The translations under genes and the position numbers were made by a program. Source: Candidatus Poribacteria bacterium (lineage in GTDB: Bacteria; Poribacteria; WGA-4E; WGA-3G). Taken from it: DNA of 64,000 nt. Positions 22,182 to 55,560 of this stretch are shown here, in pieces. The notes under the pieces were generated by a model. That model was not told where the DNA came from, did no database searches, and was given only the letters and a program-made list of their open reading frames with translations. How positions within the stretch are numbered: position 1 is the stretch's first letter; the number at the start of each line of letters is the position of its first letter. Where the stretch lies: the NCBI GenBank assembly GCA_022825825.1, contig JAJDWA010000021.1, forward strand, positions 1 through 64,000. The letters are read 5' to 3'.

Positions 22182-23093
22182 TTACAACAAACTTGATAAT
22201 TGCACCTGATCACCTGCATGATAGGAACTACGGACTAATGGTCCCGACTCTACATGTCGAAATCCCATCTCAATACCAGCTGCTTTGAGTTCATCAAATT
22301 CCTCTGGTGTGTAGTAGCGTTGAATAGGTAGGTGGCGCGAAGAAGGCGAAAGATATTGTCCAATCGTAAGAATATCACAACCTGTCCTTTGAATGTCTTG
22401 CATCGTTTCTAAAAGTTCAATGACCGTTTCACCCAATCCTACCATAAGACCGGACTTGGTAAGCATTTGTGGATTCAAATTTTTACCGATTTTGAGAAGT
22501 GAAAGTGTTTGTTGGTAATTCGCATAAGGACGCGCGCGACGGTAAAGGCGTTGAACTGTTTCAGTGTTGTGATTAAGCACTTCTGGTCCTGCTTGCACAA
22601 TTACTTTGAGGGCGTCCCAATTTCCTTCAAGATCGGGAATCAGAACTTCTATAGTACAATTTGGGCGTTGTTTCCGTGCTTCGGTGATACAATCAGCGAA
22701 TACACCCGCGCCTCCATCAGGTAAATCGTCACGGTTAACGGAGGTAATCACAACATGATTTAGCTTCAAATGGGCGACTGCTTCTCCGAGTCTTCGCGGT
22801 TCATCTGTATCCACGATACCAGGTTTGCCTTTCTTTACTGCACAGAACATACATCGCCGTGTACAAACATCTCCTAATATCATAAAAGTAGCTGTGCGGC
22901 TGTTCCAGCATTCCCCGATATTAGGACAACGTGCTTCTTCACAGACCGTGTGAAGATCAAGATCACGCATTAATTTTTTAAGTTCGGCGTAGTTGCCACC
23001 GCCAGGAATACGTGCCTTAATCCATGATGGATGTCTCCGTTGCGGTGTATCAGGGGTAAGAATCGGAAGGGGTTTGACCATTTTGTATTCCAT
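22182..23093 (-). CDS. lipA: lipoyl synthase
   Basis: A radical SAM enzyme of about 303 residues that inserts two sulfurs into octanoylated E2/H subunits. Both clusters are visible: the auxiliary-cluster motif C-x4-C-x5-C (CEEARCPNIGEC) and the radical SAM motif C-x3-C-x2-C (CTRRCMFC). The C-terminal serine-containing R-S-S-Y ligand motif is also present. The frame stays open upstream through the tRNA-Sec gene, so the start must be ATG 23091-23093 or 23079-23081 (MVKPLPIL); neither has a strong SD. It lies 27 bp after the tRNA and is probably cotranscribed with selB. No lipB is seen nearby. Confidence 0.9.
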   Translation of the reverse strand: MEYKMVKPLPILTPDTPQRRHPSWIKARIPGGGNYAELKKLMRDLDLHTVCEEARCPNIGECWNSRTATFMILGDVCTRRCMFCAVKKGKPGIVDTDEPRRLGEAVAHLKLNHVVITSVNRDDLPDGGAGVFADCITEARKQRPNCTIEVLIPDLEGNWDALKVIVQAGPEVLNHNTETVQRLYRRARPYANYQQTLSLLKIGKNLNPQMLTKSGLMVGLGETVIELLETMQDIQRTGCDILTIGQYLSPSSRHLPIQRYYTPEEFDELKAAGIEMGFRHVESGPLVRSSYHAGDQVQLSSLL

Positions 23094-23120
23094 TAGCAAG
23101 GACACAAATCCCATATAAAA

Positions 23121-23214
23121 TGGCGGGAGAGGGTGGGAGTCGAACCCACCTATCCATTTGCATGGACAAGCCGGTTTTGAAGACCGGTAGGGCCACCGGA
23201 CCCTATCCTCCCCC
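23121..23214 (-). tRNA. selC: tRNA-Sec (anticodon UCA)
   Basis: Ninety-four bases including an encoded CCA. The 8-bp acceptor stem GGGGGAGG/CCTCTCCC contains one G-U pair. The 6-bp D stem AGGGTC/GGCCCT closes a 4-base loop. The anticodon stem CCGGT/ACCGG carries loop CTTCAAA, so the anticodon is TCA and reads UGA. There is a long variable arm (TCCAT/ATGGA) and a 5-bp T stem GTGGG/CCCAC with TTCGACT. The 8+5 arrangement, long D stem, long variable arm and G73 discriminator are diagnostic of bacterial tRNA-Sec. selB lies immediately upstream. Confidence 0.93.
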
Positions 23215-23236
23215 ATAAAAATAACTTATGATTTTG

Positions 23237-45830: not shown

Positions 45831-46544
45831 TTATGGGCTGTGCAGATTCCTAAGTTCAGGGTTTAAACGAAATCCTTCCTCACGTTCTTGAGCCAGGTCT
45901 TTCCACGTGGCATCACATTCAATAAAGTGTCTCAAAACATCCTTAGCACCACGAACAACCGGCGATCCGTGCCCGAAACACATAAGATCAAACTCAAAAT
46001 GTAGCAGCATTCTGAGGGATAAACGTGCTTTGTTGATATCCACCAGATATTCAGGCGCGTTAATTCCAACCTTTCCGTCTGGAATGCCTTTGTCCTTTCT
46101 GCCGCCACTGAGCAGATCACCAAAGATGAATGCGCCCCCGTGAGGTCTCAAGTAGAAACTGACCTCTTCACCATGGCGGACATCTGGAACACGCACAACC
46201 TCAACGAGATCCCAAAGCACATCTCTGTCAGCGAATGTCCTATCATAAACAAATTCAGCCTCTTGCACCTGATTTTCATGAAGCAAGACCTCACACCCCC
46301 ATTTTTGTTTGAATTCAGTCAAGCATCTTTCATGATAGGTACAGGTCAGCATTAAATGTGTTGGACCACCAAGTTTGTCAAGCCATTGAATCTCACTTAC
46401 TGAGAGTGGGAGTGGATCTATCAACACTCGGATACTGTTGCTCTCGTCTTGCACGAAAAAACTATTCCAGTTATAGGCTTGATTCCGAGATGCCCCGTGA
46501 ATTTCCGCCCAAGTAAACAGATGGGGAGTCAGTTTAGTCAACAT
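45831..46544 (-). CDS. metallo-beta-lactamase-fold protein with degenerate metal site
   Basis: A 237-residue MBL-fold protein: NWNSFFVQ, RVLIDPLP and THLMLTC open the fold, and FIFGDLLSG and MCFGHGSPVVRGA are the later loops. The diagnostic HxHxDH is replaced by Y-H-E-R, so the first zinc site is probably lost. The last His (GHGSPV) and an Asp (FGD) remain. It may bind one metal or act non-enzymatically. Its ATG lies within the last 11 bases of the LamG gene, so the two are likely translationally coupled. Confidence 0.7.
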   Translation of the reverse strand: MLTKLTPHLFTWAEIHGASRNQAYNWNSFFVQDESNSIRVLIDPLPLSVSEIQWLDKLGGPTHLMLTCTYHERCLTEFKQKWGCEVLLHENQVQEAEFVYDRTFADRDVLWDLVEVVRVPDVRHGEEVSFYLRPHGGAFIFGDLLSGGRKDKGIPDGKVGINAPEYLVDINKARLSLRMLLHFEFDLMCFGHGSPVVRGAKDVLRHFIECDATWKDLAQEREEGFRLNPELRNLHSP

Positions 46545-47304
46545 CTCTATCTCTTTTGAGCATACCCCAAGTCGTTGCAGCTTTGTCTAATGGTGATACG
46601 CTCAAGACCTGATTCATATCTTGCTGAATCTCGGCTTCAGTCAGGACACGGTTATAGATGACAAATTCATCAAGCATTCCCTTATAGGGCCACGCACCGT
46701 CTAACCGATTGCCGAACCAATGATCTTTTTGAGAGGTCGGAATTTCGCCTTCTAACTTATGGGTCTGATCGAGTTTGCCGTTGATATAAAACCGAAGTTC
46801 TTTATTAAATTCGTAGACCGCAGCGACATGCGACCATTTATTGAGGGGAATACTGCTTTTTGCGCTGTTCCATGTCCGCCCACCAGCACCGCCGCTTCCA
46901 ATCCATACTGACGGTTTACCTTGATGGATACTTAGATAATACGTGTGAGGATCCGCTTGCCCGCGTACATTGCGATAATCACCGATACTCTCTGGATATA
47001 CCCATACCTCCATCGTCAGACTCTTGGTAATCGCCAGACTATTAGACGCTTTGACAGCAACGACTCCCTGCTGTACTTGTTCATTAAAAAACACCGCTGA
47101 TTTAATCTTTCCATTTTGCATCCATTTGACATCACCTTCAAGTGTGCCATCATTCCCTTTGCCGCTCAAGTCTTTGACATCTTTTCCTTTACCCTTATCG
47201 AACGAGAGGTAAAGTACCATTGCGTTGTCCTTAATCGCATCACTTACAAGCGGGAATATAAAAATGAATGCCGCGCTTAAAATATAAGAAACTATCTGTT
47301 TCAT
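46534..47304 (-). CDS. secreted LamG-domain protein with TTWGMLKR tail
   Basis: A 256-residue protein from ATG 47302-47304 with GGAGG upstream. Signal peptide (residues 1-22, VSDA-I), then a laminin-G/concanavalin-like sandwich: YLSFDKGKGKDVKDLSGKGNDG, LTMEVWVYP, NKWSHVAAVY, LRFYINGKLD and GMLDEFVIYNRVLTEAEI, a glycan-binding fold. After a short linker the chain ends KAATTWGMLKRDRDVD. The W-G-x-L-K-R part matches tails of the protease-ankyrin array 3 kb away. The final five residues are encoded in the overlap with the MBL-fold gene. Confidence 0.85.
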   Translation of the reverse strand: MKQIVSYILSAAFIFIFPLVSDAIKDNAMVLYLSFDKGKGKDVKDLSGKGNDGTLEGDVKWMQNGKIKSAVFFNEQVQQGVVAVKASNSLAITKSLTMEVWVYPESIGDYRNVRGQADPHTYYLSIHQGKPSVWIGSGGAGGRTWNSAKSSIPLNKWSHVAAVYEFNKELRFYINGKLDQTHKLEGEIPTSQKDHWFGNRLDGAWPYKGMLDEFVIYNRVLTEAEIQQDMNQVLSVSPLDKAATTWGMLKRDRDVD

Positions 47305-49284: not shown

Positions 49285-49528
49285 TACCGTAACGTGAGTT
49301 TGATAATTAGATGTAGGTTGGGTAGAGCGTAGCGAAATCAACAATGCAACCGTCTTGACAGTCCTAAAGCGTTGGGTTTCACCTGTTTTTTCAGAAATAT
49401 TAACATCATAAGGGTCAAAACCTCTCTTTAGGGGATGTTTTTATTCTCCATTTCCGTTCTACCCCACCGAATGCCATAGGCGCATTCGGTGTTGATTCCC
49501 TACGGGATTTATCAAACTCACGTTACCG
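49285..49528. mobile_element. 244-bp MITE-like element with about 20-bp terminal inverted repeats
   Basis: CCGTAACGTGAGTTTGATAA near 49287 is repeated inverted as TTATCAAACTCACGTTACCG (49509-49528) with one mismatch. A second, imperfect complementarity lies further in (GTAGCGAAATCAACA against TGTTGATTCCCTAC). The right end covers the stop codon of protease copy 1. The interior includes GGTTGGGTAGAGCGTAGCG, a motif of the interspersed-repeat kind. No coding frame inside. Single-ended relatives lie at 32444-32466, 55630-55652 and 57444-57458. Confidence 0.55.
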
Positions 49529-50683
49529 TTTACGTTTCACGGCACCCCACGTTGTCGCCAAAGTCCACGCGCGTTCGACAGGTTGCGGTGGTAGTTTTGC
49601 ACTGGGATGCGCCTCAATCAGTGCTGCAAGGTCTACGTGCTGAAGTTCTCTCGCCAGTTTAGCAGGAGTGCGTCCATGTTTGTCAAGGATGTTAACCTGA
49701 ATATTAGCGTGCTGCAGCAGTCTCTCCACTATCTCGCGGCTATCACGCAACACAGCATAGTGCAAAGCCGTCATCTTGCTGGCGTCGCGCGCGTTAACGT
49801 CAAAGGTAGGGTCGTCGCGCAGAAACCAATTCACCGTAAAAGGGACACCATGCTTGACCTCAAAAATTAGCGGATACTTGGGACGGCAGCCGCGTGTTTC
49901 TTCCTCGTAGACATAGTCAGGGAAAAAACAGTCGTCCGCTGGCAGGTCTTCGTATAAGTATTTATAGTACCAGATAATACCCTTTATATCATCCTCGCTG
50001 AGATAGGCAGGCGGCTCGGCAAGCGAGAAACCAGCCATGAGCGAACCTGGCTGCTTGCCCACTGTCCAATCCATCCCACCAGTACTATTCATTCCCTCGT
50101 TTGTGATATAGGTGTCAGCCATGCCCAAGACATGCCCCAACTCGTGAGAGAGATCGTAAGCGATAGCATGATCGGCATCGTTCTCCCTACGATGTATGTA
50201 GATTTCGGGAGGTTCACCATCTACCACCAGGGCAAAGGAGTTCATGTCCCCCCTGCATAGGAAGGTCACCCGTGTTTCAAGCCCGCGCACTGTCTGACGA
50301 TCTTCCCTGCGATCTACCTTGTCGAAGCCCTTAAAATCTTTCTGGCGCACAAAATGGAAGTCGTCGGTAATCGCTCTTTCAGGGTGTAGTTCCCGAATCG
50401 GTTGCAGCCAGGCGCGCAGAATGTCGGTAATCATTTCCTTGAATTTGTCTTCCCTCTGCCGAAACGCATCGGAGCAGCCTTCGGCGAAACGATAGCCGAT
50501 CGTCCAGCGCGGCTTATCTATTTTGCGCAGCAAGATATGATCCCACTCTACCTCAGCCCCTACCAAATACCTCTCGTAAGTAATAAATCCTTGCGTGGAA
50601 TAGGTGACGTTAAAAAACAGACCGCACACCACTGCCAGCATAAAAAAGGTCCGGATTGTTTGGAAACGTTTTTGTCCCTGCAT
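49523..50683 (-). CDS. secreted metzincin-like protease with ankyrin repeats, copy 1
   Basis: A 386-residue protein. Signal peptide (residues 1-32, ending STQG-F), then a zinc-metallopeptidase-like domain with H180-E-L-G-H184-V-L-G-M-A-D190, the HExxHxxGxxD form of the metzincin motif. A candidate Met-turn follows (QPGSLMAG). Residues about 285-365 are two ankyrin repeats (DASKMTALHYAVLRDSREIV, then DKHGRTPAKLARELQ). The C-terminus is TLATTWGAVKRKR. GGAGGAG lies upstream of the ATG. It is the last and most divergent gene of a five-gene array. It should act outside the cytoplasm; substrate unknown. The zinc-site reading is by motif only. Confidence 0.75.
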   Translation of the reverse strand: MQGQKRFQTIRTFFMLAVVCGLFFNVTYSTQGFITYERYLVGAEVEWDHILLRKIDKPRWTIGYRFAEGCSDAFRQREDKFKEMITDILRAWLQPIRELHPERAITDDFHFVRQKDFKGFDKVDRREDRQTVRGLETRVTFLCRGDMNSFALVVDGEPPEIYIHRRENDADHAIAYDLSHELGHVLGMADTYITNEGMNSTGGMDWTVGKQPGSLMAGFSLAEPPAYLSEDDIKGIIWYYKYLYEDLPADDCFFPDYVYEEETRGCRPKYPLIFEVKHGVPFTVNWFLRDDPTFDVNARDASKMTALHYAVLRDSREIVERLLQHANIQVNILDKHGRTPAKLARELQHVDLAALIEAHPSAKLPPQPVERAWTLATTWGAVKRKR

Positions 50684-50732
50684 CTTTTAATGTTCTCCTC
50701 CGTCTGTAGCACAAACTAACAGTTTATGCTAC

Positions 50733-51869
50733 TTACCGTTTACGTTTCACAGCACCCCACGTCGCTGTTAGCCTCCATTTAGATGACACACTCCATGCTA
50801 TCGGGTGATGTTTGGCTGTCGGATGTGCCTCGATAAGTTTGGCGAGGTTAACCTGCCGAAGTTCACGTGCCAACTGTGCAGGGGTGAGTTTATCCTTGTT
50901 GAGAAGATTGACTTTGATCTTCGCTTGTGCCAGCAGGACTTCCACCATCTCGGCACTACCGCGCTGTACAGCATAGTGCAGCGCAGTCATGCCATGTGAA
51001 TCGCGTGCGTTGAGTTCAAGGGTTGGATCATCAATCAGTATCTGCCGCACAGTTTGAAAAACACCGTGCTTAGCTTCAAAAATCAATGGATAATTAGGTT
51101 CACATCTACCATCCCACTCGACACGAATGTAGTCAGGAAAGAAGCAGTCACCAGTTGGTTGATTTTCATACAAGTACTTATAAAGCCAGATGATGCCGTT
51201 CTTATCATCCTGACCAAGAGCAAACGGCTCAATAATGTGACGCATCAAAGTACTAGACATGACCGCGGACGGCTGCTTGCCCATGGTATATGCAAGACCA
51301 CCAATACTCGGCAGACGGTCGCGTACGTATGTATCCCCCAATCCGAAAGCGTGTCCCAGCTCGTGAACGAGGGTGAAAGTGAAACCCCGATTTTCAACGC
51401 CGACTGCGACACCCTTTCTCATACATATGTCTGGTGCCTCGCCAGCGAGGGCTATCCTTGCAAAGGCTCCTCTGGCATCTTCCGCACAGTCAAAGGTGAT
51501 GCGCGTGTCCAACTCACGCAGACTTAGCCTATCCTCCTCACACGCAGCAACATCCGGATGTCTCACCAAAAGAAAATTGTCGGTAAACTGCTTATTCGGG
51601 TAACGCTCCCGCAGCGGTTGCAGCCAAGCCTGTAGAGCCTTAGTAATCGCTTCCTGCAGCTGCTTTTCCTGCTGGCGAAATTCTGCCGGACAATCCACAG
51701 TGAAGTTATAGCCGATCCGCCACTGCGGCTTATCTAACTTGTCCAACAATATATCTCTTTCTTTGAGAGTCCATGCATTGAATCCCTGGACAGTGGGTGG
51801 GATACTGAAGAGCAAGCATCCTGCCAGCAGAATACTGAAGATATATCTCATTTTTTTCATAAGTTTCAT
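50733..51869 (-). CDS. secreted metzincin-like protease with ankyrin repeats, copy 2
   Basis: A 378-residue protein from ATG 51867-51869, which has AGAGGA ten bases upstream; the longer frame is rejected. Signal peptide to about residue 35 (TVQG-F). Metal motif H169-E-L-G-H-A-F-G-L-G-D with Met-turn-like QPSAVMSS. A D-D-K-N-G-I-I-W-L-Y-K-Y helix follows, then the cysteine pair GDCFFPDY/GRCEPNYPLIFE shared by all copies, then two ankyrin repeats (DSHGMTALHYAVQRGSAEMV, NKDKLTPAQLAREL). Tail TATWGAVKRKR. It is separated from copy 3 by a 60-bp spacer identical to the one before copy 4. Confidence 0.75.
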   Translation of the reverse strand: MKLMKKMRYIFSILLAGCLLFSIPPTVQGFNAWTLKERDILLDKLDKPQWRIGYNFTVDCPAEFRQQEKQLQEAITKALQAWLQPLRERYPNKQFTDNFLLVRHPDVAACEEDRLSLRELDTRITFDCAEDARGAFARIALAGEAPDICMRKGVAVGVENRGFTFTLVHELGHAFGLGDTYVRDRLPSIGGLAYTMGKQPSAVMSSTLMRHIIEPFALGQDDKNGIIWLYKYLYENQPTGDCFFPDYIRVEWDGRCEPNYPLIFEAKHGVFQTVRQILIDDPTLELNARDSHGMTALHYAVQRGSAEMVEVLLAQAKIKVNLLNKDKLTPAQLARELRQVNLAKLIEAHPTAKHHPIAWSVSSKWRLTATWGAVKRKR

Positions 51870-51926
51870 TATGGTGTTTCCTCTGTTTGTGTAATAGCAA
51901 TTCAAAAAGCGTTAATCGGTTCAAGT
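51867..51926. repeat. 60-bp intergenic repeat, array unit A
   Basis: The 60 bases covering the start codon, SD and upstream region of copy 2 are repeated exactly at 53056-53115, and with some changes at 54251-54309. They mark the duplication unit of the array. Confidence 0.75.
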
Positions 51927-51930
51927 ATCA

Positions 51931-53058
51931 TCAATCTCCGCGTTTAAGCTCTCCCCAGGTTGTTGTTAATTTATCTTTCGCATCAACAGATAACGTCAAC
52001 GGATGGGAAAGCAACAAAGCGATTATCTTGTCAAGTCCTCTCTCCCGTGCAATGCGTAGGGCAGTGCGTCCCTGCTTGTCAGACAAAAACGGCTTAATGT
52101 CCGGGTGGTCAAGCAGTTTCGCGATCAACTCCTCAAATCCCTGCAACACCGCGTAGTGCAACGCGGTCATGCCCTCCTTATCTTGGGCATTGATGTCAAG
52201 GTTAGGATCGTCCTTGATGACCTCGAGTGACCAGTATTCATCCCCCTGCTTGATCTCAAAGATCAGTGGATATTTTGGACGACATCCCAGTGGTGTCTCC
52301 TCCAACGCATATTCGGGGAAAAAACATTCTTCCAGCGGCAACTGCTCATGCACATGTTTGTAGAGCCAGATGATGCCGTTGATGTCGTCTGTGCCAAGCG
52401 GTTCAAGTCCATCGAGTGCGACGGGATGGTTGGCATCTTGATCTAAAAAGACAGGCATGTGCCCGCTCATCACGGCAGCGGGCTGCGTGCCCTTAGTGCC
52501 TGACAAACCGCCCTGGCTGAGACCTGGCTTGTGCCTATCATTCCACGGAATGTAGGTGTCGGCAAGACCAAAAACATGCCCTGTTTCATGGACGAGGGAA
52601 TTCATAAAGGGCCTTACCACCTTCGTGCCTTGGCGCAGTTTGATGCTAGGCACTCCACCGATGAAAGCCTTAGAACGCCCCAGCTTACAGTAGAAGATGA
52701 TCCACAGGTCGGTTTCCGCGTGGAAAGGCATAGCCGCGAACTGATGATAACGGAAATCGTTGACAATCGGCTTGTTGCTATAATCGCGCAATGGCTGTAA
52801 CCATGTCTGCAGGGCTTTTGTGACCGCGGCGGTGATCGCCTTATCGTTGTTTCTCATCTCTGGCGGGCAATCATCGCCATAACTATAACTGATAGTCCAG
52901 TGTGGCGCATGCACCTTGTTGATCAACAGACCATCCAAATTCTCCCACCCCTCGTGATGTAGCGCGATGAATCCTTGTGCTGCCGGGACAATGCTGAAAA
53001 ATAGACATCCTACCAGCACACTTATAAAGAAAAGATTTATTTTTTTCCAAAGGTTCAT
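51931..53058 (-). CDS. secreted metzincin-like protease with ankyrin repeats, copy 3
   Basis: A 375-residue protein from ATG 53056-53058 with AGAGGA upstream. Signal peptide (NLFFISVLVGCLFFSIVP, AAQG). Metal motif H157-E-T-G-H-V-F-G-L-A-D, with Met-turn-like QPAAVMSG. The domain contains GTDDINGIIWLYKHVHEQL, LEECFFPEYALEE and CRPKYPLIFEIKQG. Ankyrin repeats read DKEGMTALHYAVLQGFEELI and DKQGRTALRIARERGLDKII. Tail KLTTTWGELKRGD. Very similar to copies 4 and 5 from the cysteine pair to the end. The L-V-G-C inside the signal could be read as a lipobox, but the hydrophobic stretch continues past it, so a signal-peptidase-I site at AQG is preferred. Confidence 0.78.
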   Translation of the reverse strand: MNLWKKINLFFISVLVGCLFFSIVPAAQGFIALHHEGWENLDGLLINKVHAPHWTISYSYGDDCPPEMRNNDKAITAAVTKALQTWLQPLRDYSNKPIVNDFRYHQFAAMPFHAETDLWIIFYCKLGRSKAFIGGVPSIKLRQGTKVVRPFMNSLVHETGHVFGLADTYIPWNDRHKPGLSQGGLSGTKGTQPAAVMSGHMPVFLDQDANHPVALDGLEPLGTDDINGIIWLYKHVHEQLPLEECFFPEYALEETPLGCRPKYPLIFEIKQGDEYWSLEVIKDDPNLDINAQDKEGMTALHYAVLQGFEELIAKLLDHPDIKPFLSDKQGRTALRIARERGLDKIIALLLSHPLTLSVDAKDKLTTTWGELKRGD

Positions 53059-53115
53059 TATGGTGTTTCCTCTGTTTGTGTAATAGCAATTCAAAAAGCG
53101 TTAATCGGTTCAAGT
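53056..53115. repeat. 60-bp intergenic repeat, array unit B
   Basis: Exact copy of 51867-51926, covering the start region and upstream spacer of copy 3. Confidence 0.75.
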
Positions 53116-53119
53116 CTCA

Positions 53120-54253
53120 TCAATCTCCGTTTTTAAGCTCTCCCCAGGTTGTTGTCAGCTTACCTTTCGCATCAACAGCCAACGTCAACGGATGGGAAAG
53201 CAACAACGCTATTATCTTGTCAAATCCTCTCTCCTGTGCAAGACTCAGCGCAGTACGTCCCTGCTTGTCAGACAAAAACGACTTGATGTCGGGGTGGTCA
53301 AGCAGTTTCGCTATCAACTCCTCAAACCCCTGCAACACCGCGTAGTGCAACGCGGTCATGCCATCCTTATCTTGGGCATTGATGTCAAGGTTAGGATCGT
53401 CCTTGATGACCTCAAGCGACCAGTATTCATCTCCCTGCTTGATCTCAAAGATTAGTGGATATTTGGGCACACAGCCCAGGGGTGTCTCCTCCAACGCATA
53501 TTCAGGGAAAAAACAGTCTTCCAGCGGCAGCTGCTCATGCACATGCTTGTAGAGCCAGATGATGCCGTTGATGTCGTCCGCGCCGAGTAGTGGTGGAAGA
53601 GCATTGAGGTCGACGGGGTCGTGTGCATCTACATTAATTGGAAGAATGGGCATGTGTAAGCTCATCACGGCAGCGGGCTGCGTACCTTTGGTGTTAGCTA
53701 AACCGCCTTTACTGATACCTGGCTTGCCCCGATCCACCCACGGAATGTAAGTATCGGCAAGACCAAAAACATGTCCTGTTTCATGGACAAGCGAAGCCAT
53801 AAATCTCCACACCACTTTCGTGCCTTGGCGCAAACTGATACCAGGACTATTAGCATCAACGTGTGCATTAGAATTCTGCAATACACAGTAGAAGATGATC
53901 CACAGATCGCTATCCGCGCGGAAAGGCTCAGCCGCAAACTTCTGATAGCGGAAATCGTTGACAATCGGCTTGTTGCTATAATCGCGCAACGGCTGCAACC
54001 ATGTCTGCAGGGCTTTTGTGACCGCGGCGGTAATCGCCTTGTCGTTGTTTCTCATCTCTGGCGGGCAATCATCACCGTAACTATAACTGATGGTCCAGTG
54101 TGGCGCATGCACCTTATCGATCAGGACGTTAAAATGTATTTTAAACTCATGGTCAAAGGTCATGAACCCTTGCACTGATGGGACAATACTGAAAAACAGG
54201 CATCCTACCAGCACACTGATAAAGAAAAGATTTATTTTTTTCCAACGGGTCAT
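53120..54253 (-). CDS. secreted metzincin-like protease with ankyrin repeats, copy 4
   Basis: A 377-residue protein from ATG 54251-54253. Signal peptide as in copy 3. Metal motif H157-E-T-G-H-V-F-G-L-A-D at the same residue as copy 3, Met-turn-like QPAAVMSL. The ankyrin region differs from copy 3 at only a few residues. Tail KLTTTWGELKNGD, in which the usual R of the tail is N. The most variable part between copies 3 and 4 is the stretch before the metal motif (DLWIIFYCVLQNSNAHVD here), which may form the substrate cleft. Confidence 0.78.
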   Translation of the reverse strand: MTRWKKINLFFISVLVGCLFFSIVPSVQGFMTFDHEFKIHFNVLIDKVHAPHWTISYSYGDDCPPEMRNNDKAITAAVTKALQTWLQPLRDYSNKPIVNDFRYQKFAAEPFRADSDLWIIFYCVLQNSNAHVDANSPGISLRQGTKVVWRFMASLVHETGHVFGLADTYIPWVDRGKPGISKGGLANTKGTQPAAVMSLHMPILPINVDAHDPVDLNALPPLLGADDINGIIWLYKHVHEQLPLEDCFFPEYALEETPLGCVPKYPLIFEIKQGDEYWSLEVIKDDPNLDINAQDKDGMTALHYAVLQGFEELIAKLLDHPDIKSFLSDKQGRTALSLAQERGFDKIIALLLSHPLTLAVDAKGKLTTTWGELKNGD

Positions 54254-54309
54254 TATCGTGTTTCCTCCGTTTGTGTAAAGCATTTCAAAAAGCGTTAATC
54301 GGTTCAAGT
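54251..54309. repeat. intergenic repeat, diverged array unit C
   Basis: Matches units A and B apart from a few substitutions and one missing base; covers the start region of copy 4. Confidence 0.65.
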
Positions 54310-54313
54310 CCCA

Positions 54314-55444
54314 TCAATCGCCGCGTTTGAGCTCTCCCCAGGTTGTTGTCAGCTTGCCTTTCGCATCAACAGCCAATGTCAGCGGATGGGAAAGCAACAA
54401 AGCGATTATCTTATCAAGTCCTCTCTCCTGTGCGATACGTAGGGCAGTGCGTCCCTGTTTGTCAGACAAAAACGGCTTAATGTCAGGGTGGTCAAGCAGT
54501 TTCGCGATCAACTCCTCAAACCCCTGTAACACCGCGTGGTGCAAGGCGGTCATGCCATCGGCATCCTGTGCGTTGACATCAAGGTTTTCGTCATCGTTGA
54601 GGACAAAGAGGGCGAGCCGCTCATTTTCTTGCTTGATTTCAAAGATGAGGGGGTACTTGGGTTCACAGCCGAACGGTGTTTCCGCCAGTTCATAGTTAGG
54701 AAAAAAGCAGTCATCCATTGGCAGTCCTTCGTAGGTGTACTTATAGAGCCAGATGATGCCATTTTCATCGTCTTGACCCAGTGGCACGAGTCCTTGCAAG
54801 GGGACGAGAGCGTCCCGGTCAATATCTTTAAAGTCCTTCCCCGCGACCGATAAGCCAAAACTACTCATAAAAGAAGTCGGCTGTGATCCTCTCGTATGAT
54901 TTGTCCCACCGGTACTGATGCCAGCCGGACCGAGACGCGCACCGTCGTAGGTGTCTGCCAAGCCGAAGAGATGTCCTAACTCGTGCAGCATTGCTGCCAT
55001 CCGGCGCCAGGTAAGTTCATGCCCCTTCGCAGGGTTGATGATCCCCAGCGGGCCAAAAAATGCTTTGGGGGCTTCTTTTAGCTCACAGATGTGGGTGACA
55101 CCGAAAGTAGCCCCGCGCCAATCGGGATCGAGCTTATAGCGAAAATCGTTGACGATCGGCCGCTCAGTGTATTCCCGCAACGGTTGTAGCCACGACTGGA
55201 GAAACTTTGTTATGATCTGTTCAAATTTTTCTTGAGTCTCTTTGTCTACCGGTTCGCACTTGTCAAAGCTGTAATGAATGATCCAAAACGGCTCATGCAC
55301 CTTGCTTATTAGAAAACCATCGAAACGTTGACCGAGGTCGTGATGCAGCGTGATGAATCCTTGTGCTGCCGGGGCAATGCTGAAGAGCAGACATCCTACC
55401 AGCACACCTATAAAGAAAAGATTTATTTTTTTCCAAAGTTTCAT
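54314..55444 (-). CDS. secreted metzincin-like protease with ankyrin repeats, copy 5
   Basis: A 376-residue protein from ATG 55442-55444 (AGAGGA eight bases upstream); an ATG two codons earlier is too close to the SD. Signal peptide (IAPAAQG-F). Metal motif H154-E-L-G-H-L-F-G-L-A-D with Met-turn-like QPTSFMSS. The N-terminal catalytic half is diverged from copies 3 and 4, while the ankyrin part and tail (KLTTTWGELKRGD) are nearly identical to copy 3. First gene of the array in transcription order; no clear -35/-10 pair found in the 286-bp spacer upstream. Confidence 0.78.
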   Translation of the reverse strand: MKLWKKINLFFIGVLVGCLLFSIAPAAQGFITLHHDLGQRFDGFLISKVHEPFWIIHYSFDKCEPVDKETQEKFEQIITKFLQSWLQPLREYTERPIVNDFRYKLDPDWRGATFGVTHICELKEAPKAFFGPLGIINPAKGHELTWRRMAAMLHELGHLFGLADTYDGARLGPAGISTGGTNHTRGSQPTSFMSSFGLSVAGKDFKDIDRDALVPLQGLVPLGQDDENGIIWLYKYTYEGLPMDDCFFPNYELAETPFGCEPKYPLIFEIKQENERLALFVLNDDENLDVNAQDADGMTALHHAVLQGFEELIAKLLDHPDIKPFLSDKQGRTALRIAQERGLDKIIALLLSHPLTLAVDAKGKLTTTWGELKRGD

Positions 55445-55560
55445 TATCATATTCCTCTGTTTATATATCGGTTGTTATAGTTCAATCCACAATTACCTGG
55501 ACATTGGTGAGGTTAGGAAACCGCGCCAGCAGCGGGTACACCCGCCTCGTGCAGACAGGA

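Follow-up and report, generated by a model that had tools for sequence, protein, structure and literature searches.

A tandem array of putative ankyrin-bearing metzincins in a poribacterial genome, and a C-terminal tail shared with dozens of other proteins

The window analysed here comprises the first 64,000 nucleotides of contig JAJDWA010000021.1 from a Candidatus Poribacteria bacterium (assembly GCA_022825825.1; 5.14 Mb in 75 contigs, 84% complete). It carries five tandem genes, each encoding a hydrophobic N-terminus, a predicted matrixin-like catalytic half, ankyrin repeats and a short C-terminal tail, T-W-G-x-[LV]-K. The same tail closes many unrelated proteins throughout the genome, and it is this tail that is the more unusual and the larger finding. 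With a probability that I put at roughly 0.55, the five genes encode exported matrixin-like proteases whose ankyrin-tail half places the enzyme, the tail itself acting as a general poribacterial localisation tag.

Five tandem genes and the tail that they share

As the initial annotation of the window described, the genes lie head-to-tail: five minus-strand open reading frames of 375-386 amino acids occupy positions 49523-55450, with intergenic gaps of 49-61 bases.

49523..50683, minus strand: P0001, 386 amino acids; hydrophobic N-terminus, predicted matrixin-like catalytic half, ankyrin repeats, tail TTWGAVKRKR
50733..51869, minus strand: P0002, 378 amino acids; layout as P0001, tail ATWGAVKRKR
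51931..53058, minus strand: P0003, 375 amino acids; layout as P0001, tail TTWGELKRGD
53120..54253, minus strand: P0004, 377 amino acids; layout as P0001, tail TTWGELKNGD
54314..55450, minus strand: P0005, 378 amino acids; layout as P0001, tail TTWGELKRGD; start codon at 55450 or 55444

P0003 has five matches in the whole genome. Synonymous exceeds non-synonymous divergence wherever it was measurable (ratios 0.12-0.54, with many comparisons saturated), and the genes therefore look maintained.

The tail had been noted as a mark of the protease family, and it is indeed present in all five copies, but it is not specific to them. The pattern T-W-G-x-[aliphatic or F]-K occurs at 79 sites in the genome as against one for a backward control, a difference that rejects chance as its origin, and 75 of the 79 sites lie 6-16 codons ahead of a stop codon, on unrelated folds, so that the tail must be regarded as a genome-wide C-terminal element rather than a protease-family feature. 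Once three of these 75 sites, on very short frames, had been dropped, there remained 72 tail proteins (frames of at least 100 amino acids), 70 of which have a hydrophobic N-terminus according to a simple hydropathy rule, which is not a signal-peptide program and was favoured by start codons picked with the rule in mind. The search pattern itself fixes T-W-G and the last K; upstream of it the tails agree in V (67/72), P or A (65/72), K (65/72), L (50/72) and T (53/72), and in 70 of the 72 a further 1-6 residues, net basic on average, follow the last K. The element can be written as V-x-[PA]-x-x-K-L-x-T-T-W-G-x-[LIV]-K, about 20 residues in all.

The proteins that carry it are diverse. By Pfam (E <=0.001) the 72 include 35 LamG-like proteins, 10 PD40/TolB-like propellers, five ankyrin proteins and five 3-keto-disaccharide hydrolases, other types being fewer, and with their last 25 residues removed they form 13 BLAST clusters (43, 10, 5, 2, 2, 2, 2 and six singles). 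A tail found after LamG, beta-propeller, ankyrin and other folds alike does not belong structurally to any one of them. The window holds a sixth tail gene:

46537..47304, minus strand: LamG-like protein; hydrophobic N-terminus, C-terminal end ATTWGMLKRDRDVD

Beyond this genome, tail sites occur in all 84 poribacterial genomes, at 4-119 per genome versus 0-8 for the control, which they outnumber in every one. Of 20 sites sampled from two distant genomes of the phylum, 19 stand at the C-terminus of a frame no shorter than 100 amino acids.

LPXTG and PEP-CTERM signals consist of a motif followed by a transmembrane segment. The tail has in common with these and similar sorting signals that it is a short C-terminal motif on many exported proteins, but it differs in that no hydrophobic segment follows the motif: 75 of the 79 sites stand at the very end, and only three of the 72 proteins reach a mean hydropathy of 1.6 over 15 residues within their last 50. 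Ten of the 72 tails, queried alone, gave no NCBIfam match and no Pfam match above cut-off, a weak test with such short queries, and a literature search with the bare letters of the motif returned only noise among the matches listed from open-licence papers. Within that literature the tail looks undescribed. The missing transmembrane segment, the tails without database matches and the failure to find any machinery would also suit a tail that is merely a conserved closing element of exported proteins, or a tag for their turnover or quality control, in which case the proteases would simply be secreted or periplasmic. Such a role sits poorly with a tail that follows so many different folds and whose V and K upstream of the pattern are themselves conserved, and I consider it rather unlikely.

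The catalytic half and the ankyrin part

Alignment of the five copies bears out two further motifs of the initial annotation, HE[LT]GHxxG[LM][AG]D and QPxxxM, each of which, like T-W-G-x-[LV]-K, is present in every copy. The Met and all putative zinc ligands are invariant in the five copies and in all 16 aligned sequences, and so is HExxHxxGxxD, with Asp as the presumed third ligand. The single conserved cysteine pair proposed earlier gives way to four cysteines common to all 16 catalytic halves, which hold 4 to 7 cysteines each.

Structure prediction places HExxH on a helix, as a metzincin fold would have it, at residues 149-163 of the full P0003 model and 126-140 of a model of the P0002 catalytic half, with H, E and H all inside the helix in both. 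The catalytic half was modelled alone because the full-length P0003 model matched only ankyrin-type structures among the PDB rows listed.

51075..51764, minus strand: P0002 catalytic half, region modelled; predicted matrixin-like fold

This second model matched the catalytic-domain fold of matrix metalloproteinases (MMPs) in a search of PDB structures. No snapalysin entry stood among its 50 best listed structure matches, which is uninformative on a snapalysin fold. Profile searches agreed in part: against solved structures snapalysin was best (6e-5, in two collinear segments) and matrixins matched weakly, but PF00413, with a gathering score of 24 bits, was missed by P0002 both at full length (21.4 bits) and as a catalytic half (23.6 bits). 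Among the five copies P0002 scores best with Pfam M10 (2.6e-4, below cut-off); P0001 and P0004 fall under 12 bits for PF00413, and P0003 and P0005 are not listed. The NCBIfam snapalysin model (cut-off 300 bits) gave 11.6-12.4 bits for P0001, P0003 and P0004, with P0002 and P0005 not listed, and the M6 domain TIGR03296 (cut-off 110.8 bits) 15.8-21.3 bits in all five, around HExxHxxGxxD. Taken at the level of the predicted fold, the identification of the five gene products as putative matrixin-like metzincins (zinc endopeptidases) is well supported.

The matrixins (MEROPS M10A) are metzincins that include the MMPs and bacterial karilysin, and their zinc motif is HExxHxxGxxH, with His as third ligand; snapalysin, the small neutral protease of Streptomyces, represents family M7. 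The array proteins resemble matrixins in the predicted MMP catalytic-domain fold but differ in their presumed Asp ligand (16/16), in Pfam M10 scores below cut-off, in their shared cysteines and in their ankyrin repeats, and no prodomain was recognised in them by eye. With snapalysin they have in common HExxHxxGxxD and the best profile match, whereas snapalysin measures 132-134 residues in its structure entries and the array catalytic half about 230, to which ankyrin repeats and tail are added. The likeness to M6 is weak and far under cut-off.

The ankyrin part is recognised by Pfam above cut-off in all five copies and folds as ankyrin in the P0003 model at about residues 262-355, so that the two repeats originally counted are a minimum. 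The earlier statement that these parts are united in no described family is correct as far as Pfam and NCBIfam go, although the protease family has relatives elsewhere. The Dot/Icm ankyrin effectors of NCBIfam were rejected as a match, since they align mainly with the ankyrin part and far below cut-off. Sponge-symbiont ankyrin proteins with an effect on phagocytosis (Nguyen et al., as cited in PMC3909097) share with the array, as far as that citation describes them, ankyrin repeats in a sponge symbiont; here the ankyrin part is instead fused to a putative metzincin with a hydrophobic N-terminus.

That N-terminus is what stands of the signal peptide first annotated, again by the hydropathy rule rather than a signal-peptide program. 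Because of it, and of the shared cysteines, export of the array proteins is likely. Within the hydrophobic stretch of P0002-P0005, L[VA]GC fits a lipobox by eye, with more hydrophobic residues following, and its Cys is retained in only some relatives.

Mosaic copies, relatives and a second phylum

The two halves of these proteins have not diverged evenly (identities below are given in percent as catalytic/ankyrin-tail part). In several pairs, though not in all, the ankyrin-tail parts are more alike than the catalytic cores: P0003-P0005 stand at 49/85, P0004-P0005 at 48/84 and P0003-P0004 at 81/92, and elsewhere the L047 pair reaches 79/100 and the L067 pair 72/85, with P0001-P0002 (46/61) and L036 (58/67) leaning weakly in the same direction. 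Between P0003 and P0005, synonymous divergence goes from 0.11 in the signal region through saturation in the core to 0.58 in the ankyrin-tail part, and the borders are sharp. Sister sequences from different genomes show no such imbalance (73/68, 61/62 and 76/73), nor do L081-P0002 (57/58) and L074-L090 (44/39); for L051-L053 a division into the two parts was not possible. My reading of the strong pairs is that exchange or conversion has probably kept the placing part similar and left the cores free to vary.

The genome collection yielded nine related loci, seven of them in records that bear the name Poribacteria. A profile of the family matches 52 of the 84 genomes of the phylum, by my reading 20 of them (the source genome included) outside the ankyrin part and 32 only in or beside it; since 23 candidates were scored per genome, 20/84 is a lower bound, within which G074 and G082 count as pieces only. 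In these two the family copies are indeed fragmented (contig 27 and contig 1, respectively), while other genomes hold intact copies. In four relatives (L044, L045, L051 and L053) the place of the tail is taken by repeats that, judged by eye, resemble dockerins, and the protease C-terminus therefore looks exchangeable. Dockerin matches numbered 46 at E <=0.01.

This distribution bears on whether the proteases act on the bacterium itself, maturing or turning over its own surface proteins and not those of host or prey. Another 67 genes in the genome carry the tail, and the proteases would therefore share the place of those products. However, the protease is found outside the ankyrin part in at least 20 of 84 genomes as against 84 of 84 for the tail, which argues against a housekeeping maturase, expected to be more widespread, and a purely self-directed role seems improbable.

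Four full tail-bearing protease copies also occur outside the phylum, in the Oligoflexales record OY282434.1 (G084). They are spread across a 2.84 Mb contig, so contamination by a small contig is rejected; by eye the N-termini of L087 and L090 fit a lipobox and those of L074 and L081 do so loosely. One copy is 90% identical to a poribacterial sequence in the catalytic half and another 57% identical to P0002. In a tree of 31 sequences the four are not grouped: on the starred branches alone the label has to change three times, and in the best tree four times. A claim that this proves three separate transfers was withdrawn, because one transfer of a multi-copy array also fits and 500 of 500 label shuffles were as low. 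Between several transfers and one of an array, the unequal divergence of the copies favours several.

The same Oligoflexales genome holds a second tail family of seven paralogues (L078, L082, L088, two at L159, L160 and L164), with hydrophobic N-termini by eye. The poribacterial L050 combines protease and ankyrin parts with a C-terminal domain similar to this family (best E about 1e-22 with tails and 7e-19 without, one of the seven having no listed match to L050); the corresponding part of L050 went unrecognised by Pfam. By eye, and as an impression only, the second family resembles a degenerate, inactive chymotrypsin-type domain. OY282434.1 contains 50 loose motif sites (control 39), all of which were inspected, and the 11 that are C-terminal on frames of more than 300 amino acids are the four proteases and the seven members of the second family. 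Across 57 genomes of the phylum to which this record belongs, tail-motif sites number 125 versus 109 for the control.

Type IX secretion and the role of the tail

The type IX C-terminal domain, TIGR04183, is likewise a module that many of this genome's exported proteins carry at their C-terminus (61 matches, 58 above cut-off). In the sections of Kamke et al. (2014; PMC3909097) drawn on here, such domains are reported in Poribacteria, the structural genes were not found and the export route was left open. A SprA model now matches 83 of the 84 poribacterial genomes at E <=0.001, one of them above the curated cut-off, typically as separate collinear segments within one frame of about 2150-2300 amino acids, in a search that had no positive control (0 of 14 control genomes matched). 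The SprA-like protein of this genome, of 2152 amino acids (G000 contig 75, L148:3719-10174), scores below cut-off with both TIGR04189 (2.2e-19) and the Pfam model SprA_N, PF14349 (4.4e-5), and a PDB search with it found no match. In addition, three gingipain-type C25 peptidases occur in very large frames (G000 contigs 10, 30 and 72), each frame including a type IX C-terminal domain. Because of the SprA-like matches, the type IX domains and the C25 peptidases, a distant type IX-like system in Poribacteria is likely.

The tail might then be a short relative or partner of the type IX domain that uses this system, and all three of these components would be in keeping with that, as would two proteins in which the motif directly precedes the domain. 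Four motif sites lie away from a C-terminus, and these two are among them; by coordinates, however, they account for only 2 of the 61 domains. TIGR04183 spans 72 positions as against about 20 residues for the tail; it is not listed for any of the five array proteins, has no match inside the window, and does not figure among the 25 NCBIfam families found most often in the 72 tail proteins (13 rarer ones fall beyond those listed). The Oligoflexales genome, with its 11 tail proteins, gave no SprA match, a weak negative since no control matched either. I read the tail as distinct from the type IX domain, and its use of that system as a doubtful proposition.

A broader idea is that the tail represents a new C-terminal address label across Poribacteria, present in each genome on exported proteins by the dozen, not tied to the type IX domain, and portable, the last because the Oligoflexales genome carries it on 11 proteins with exported-looking N-termini. 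I offer this tentatively, at odds somewhat short of even.

Returning to exported proteases placed by their ankyrin-tail half, the enzymes would be exported and then held where other tail proteins sit. The C-terminal half, an ankyrin solenoid plus the tail of some 20 residues, would serve this placement, the tail bringing many unrelated exported proteins to one extracytoplasmic place, cell surface or matrix, and the ankyrin part binding or selecting a partner or substrate. The catalytic cores would cut extracellular proteins, sponge matrix or others, with differing specificity, and recombination between copies may help to keep the ankyrin-tail parts alike while the cores diverge.

Several observations weigh against this account. 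Confidence in the models is moderate (mean pLDDT, the predicted local distance difference test score, about 73), and the Asp ligand and Met-turn fall in or beside low-confidence stretches, the ten-residue blocks around the Met of QPxxxM averaging 53-56 in both models. The mosaic is not uniform, as the modest contrast of L036 indicates; P0002-P0003 have no ankyrin-tail excess (49/42), L087-L067 are reversed (90/70), and P0003-L039 (47/61) and P0001-L038 (50/59), pairs across genomes with no array involved, also favour the ankyrin-tail part, which means that some of the contrast may come from the ankyrin part changing more slowly. Lipoprotein anchoring of P0002-P0005 through the lipobox-like Cys is conceivable. 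No transport or anchoring machinery or partner is tied to the tail, for which a role in folding or turnover is possible, and the presence of the protease in the phylum is patchy.

Elsewhere in the window, ARAGORN predicts a selenocysteine tRNA at 23121-23214 on the minus strand, inside a 344-amino-acid frame (22182-23216).

Poribacteria are described in PMC3909097 as a dominant sponge symbiont phylum. Given this habitat and the predicted MMP-like fold, the sponge matrix is a plausible target of the array enzymes, and their matrixin-like character, presumed Asp ligand and ankyrin half make them candidates for sponge-matrix remodelling. If the tail is an address label, different symbionts could have their proteins meet on a common surface or matrix. 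Together, the tail and the SprA-like protein would offer two concrete starting points for learning how a phylum without cultured members presents proteins to its host.

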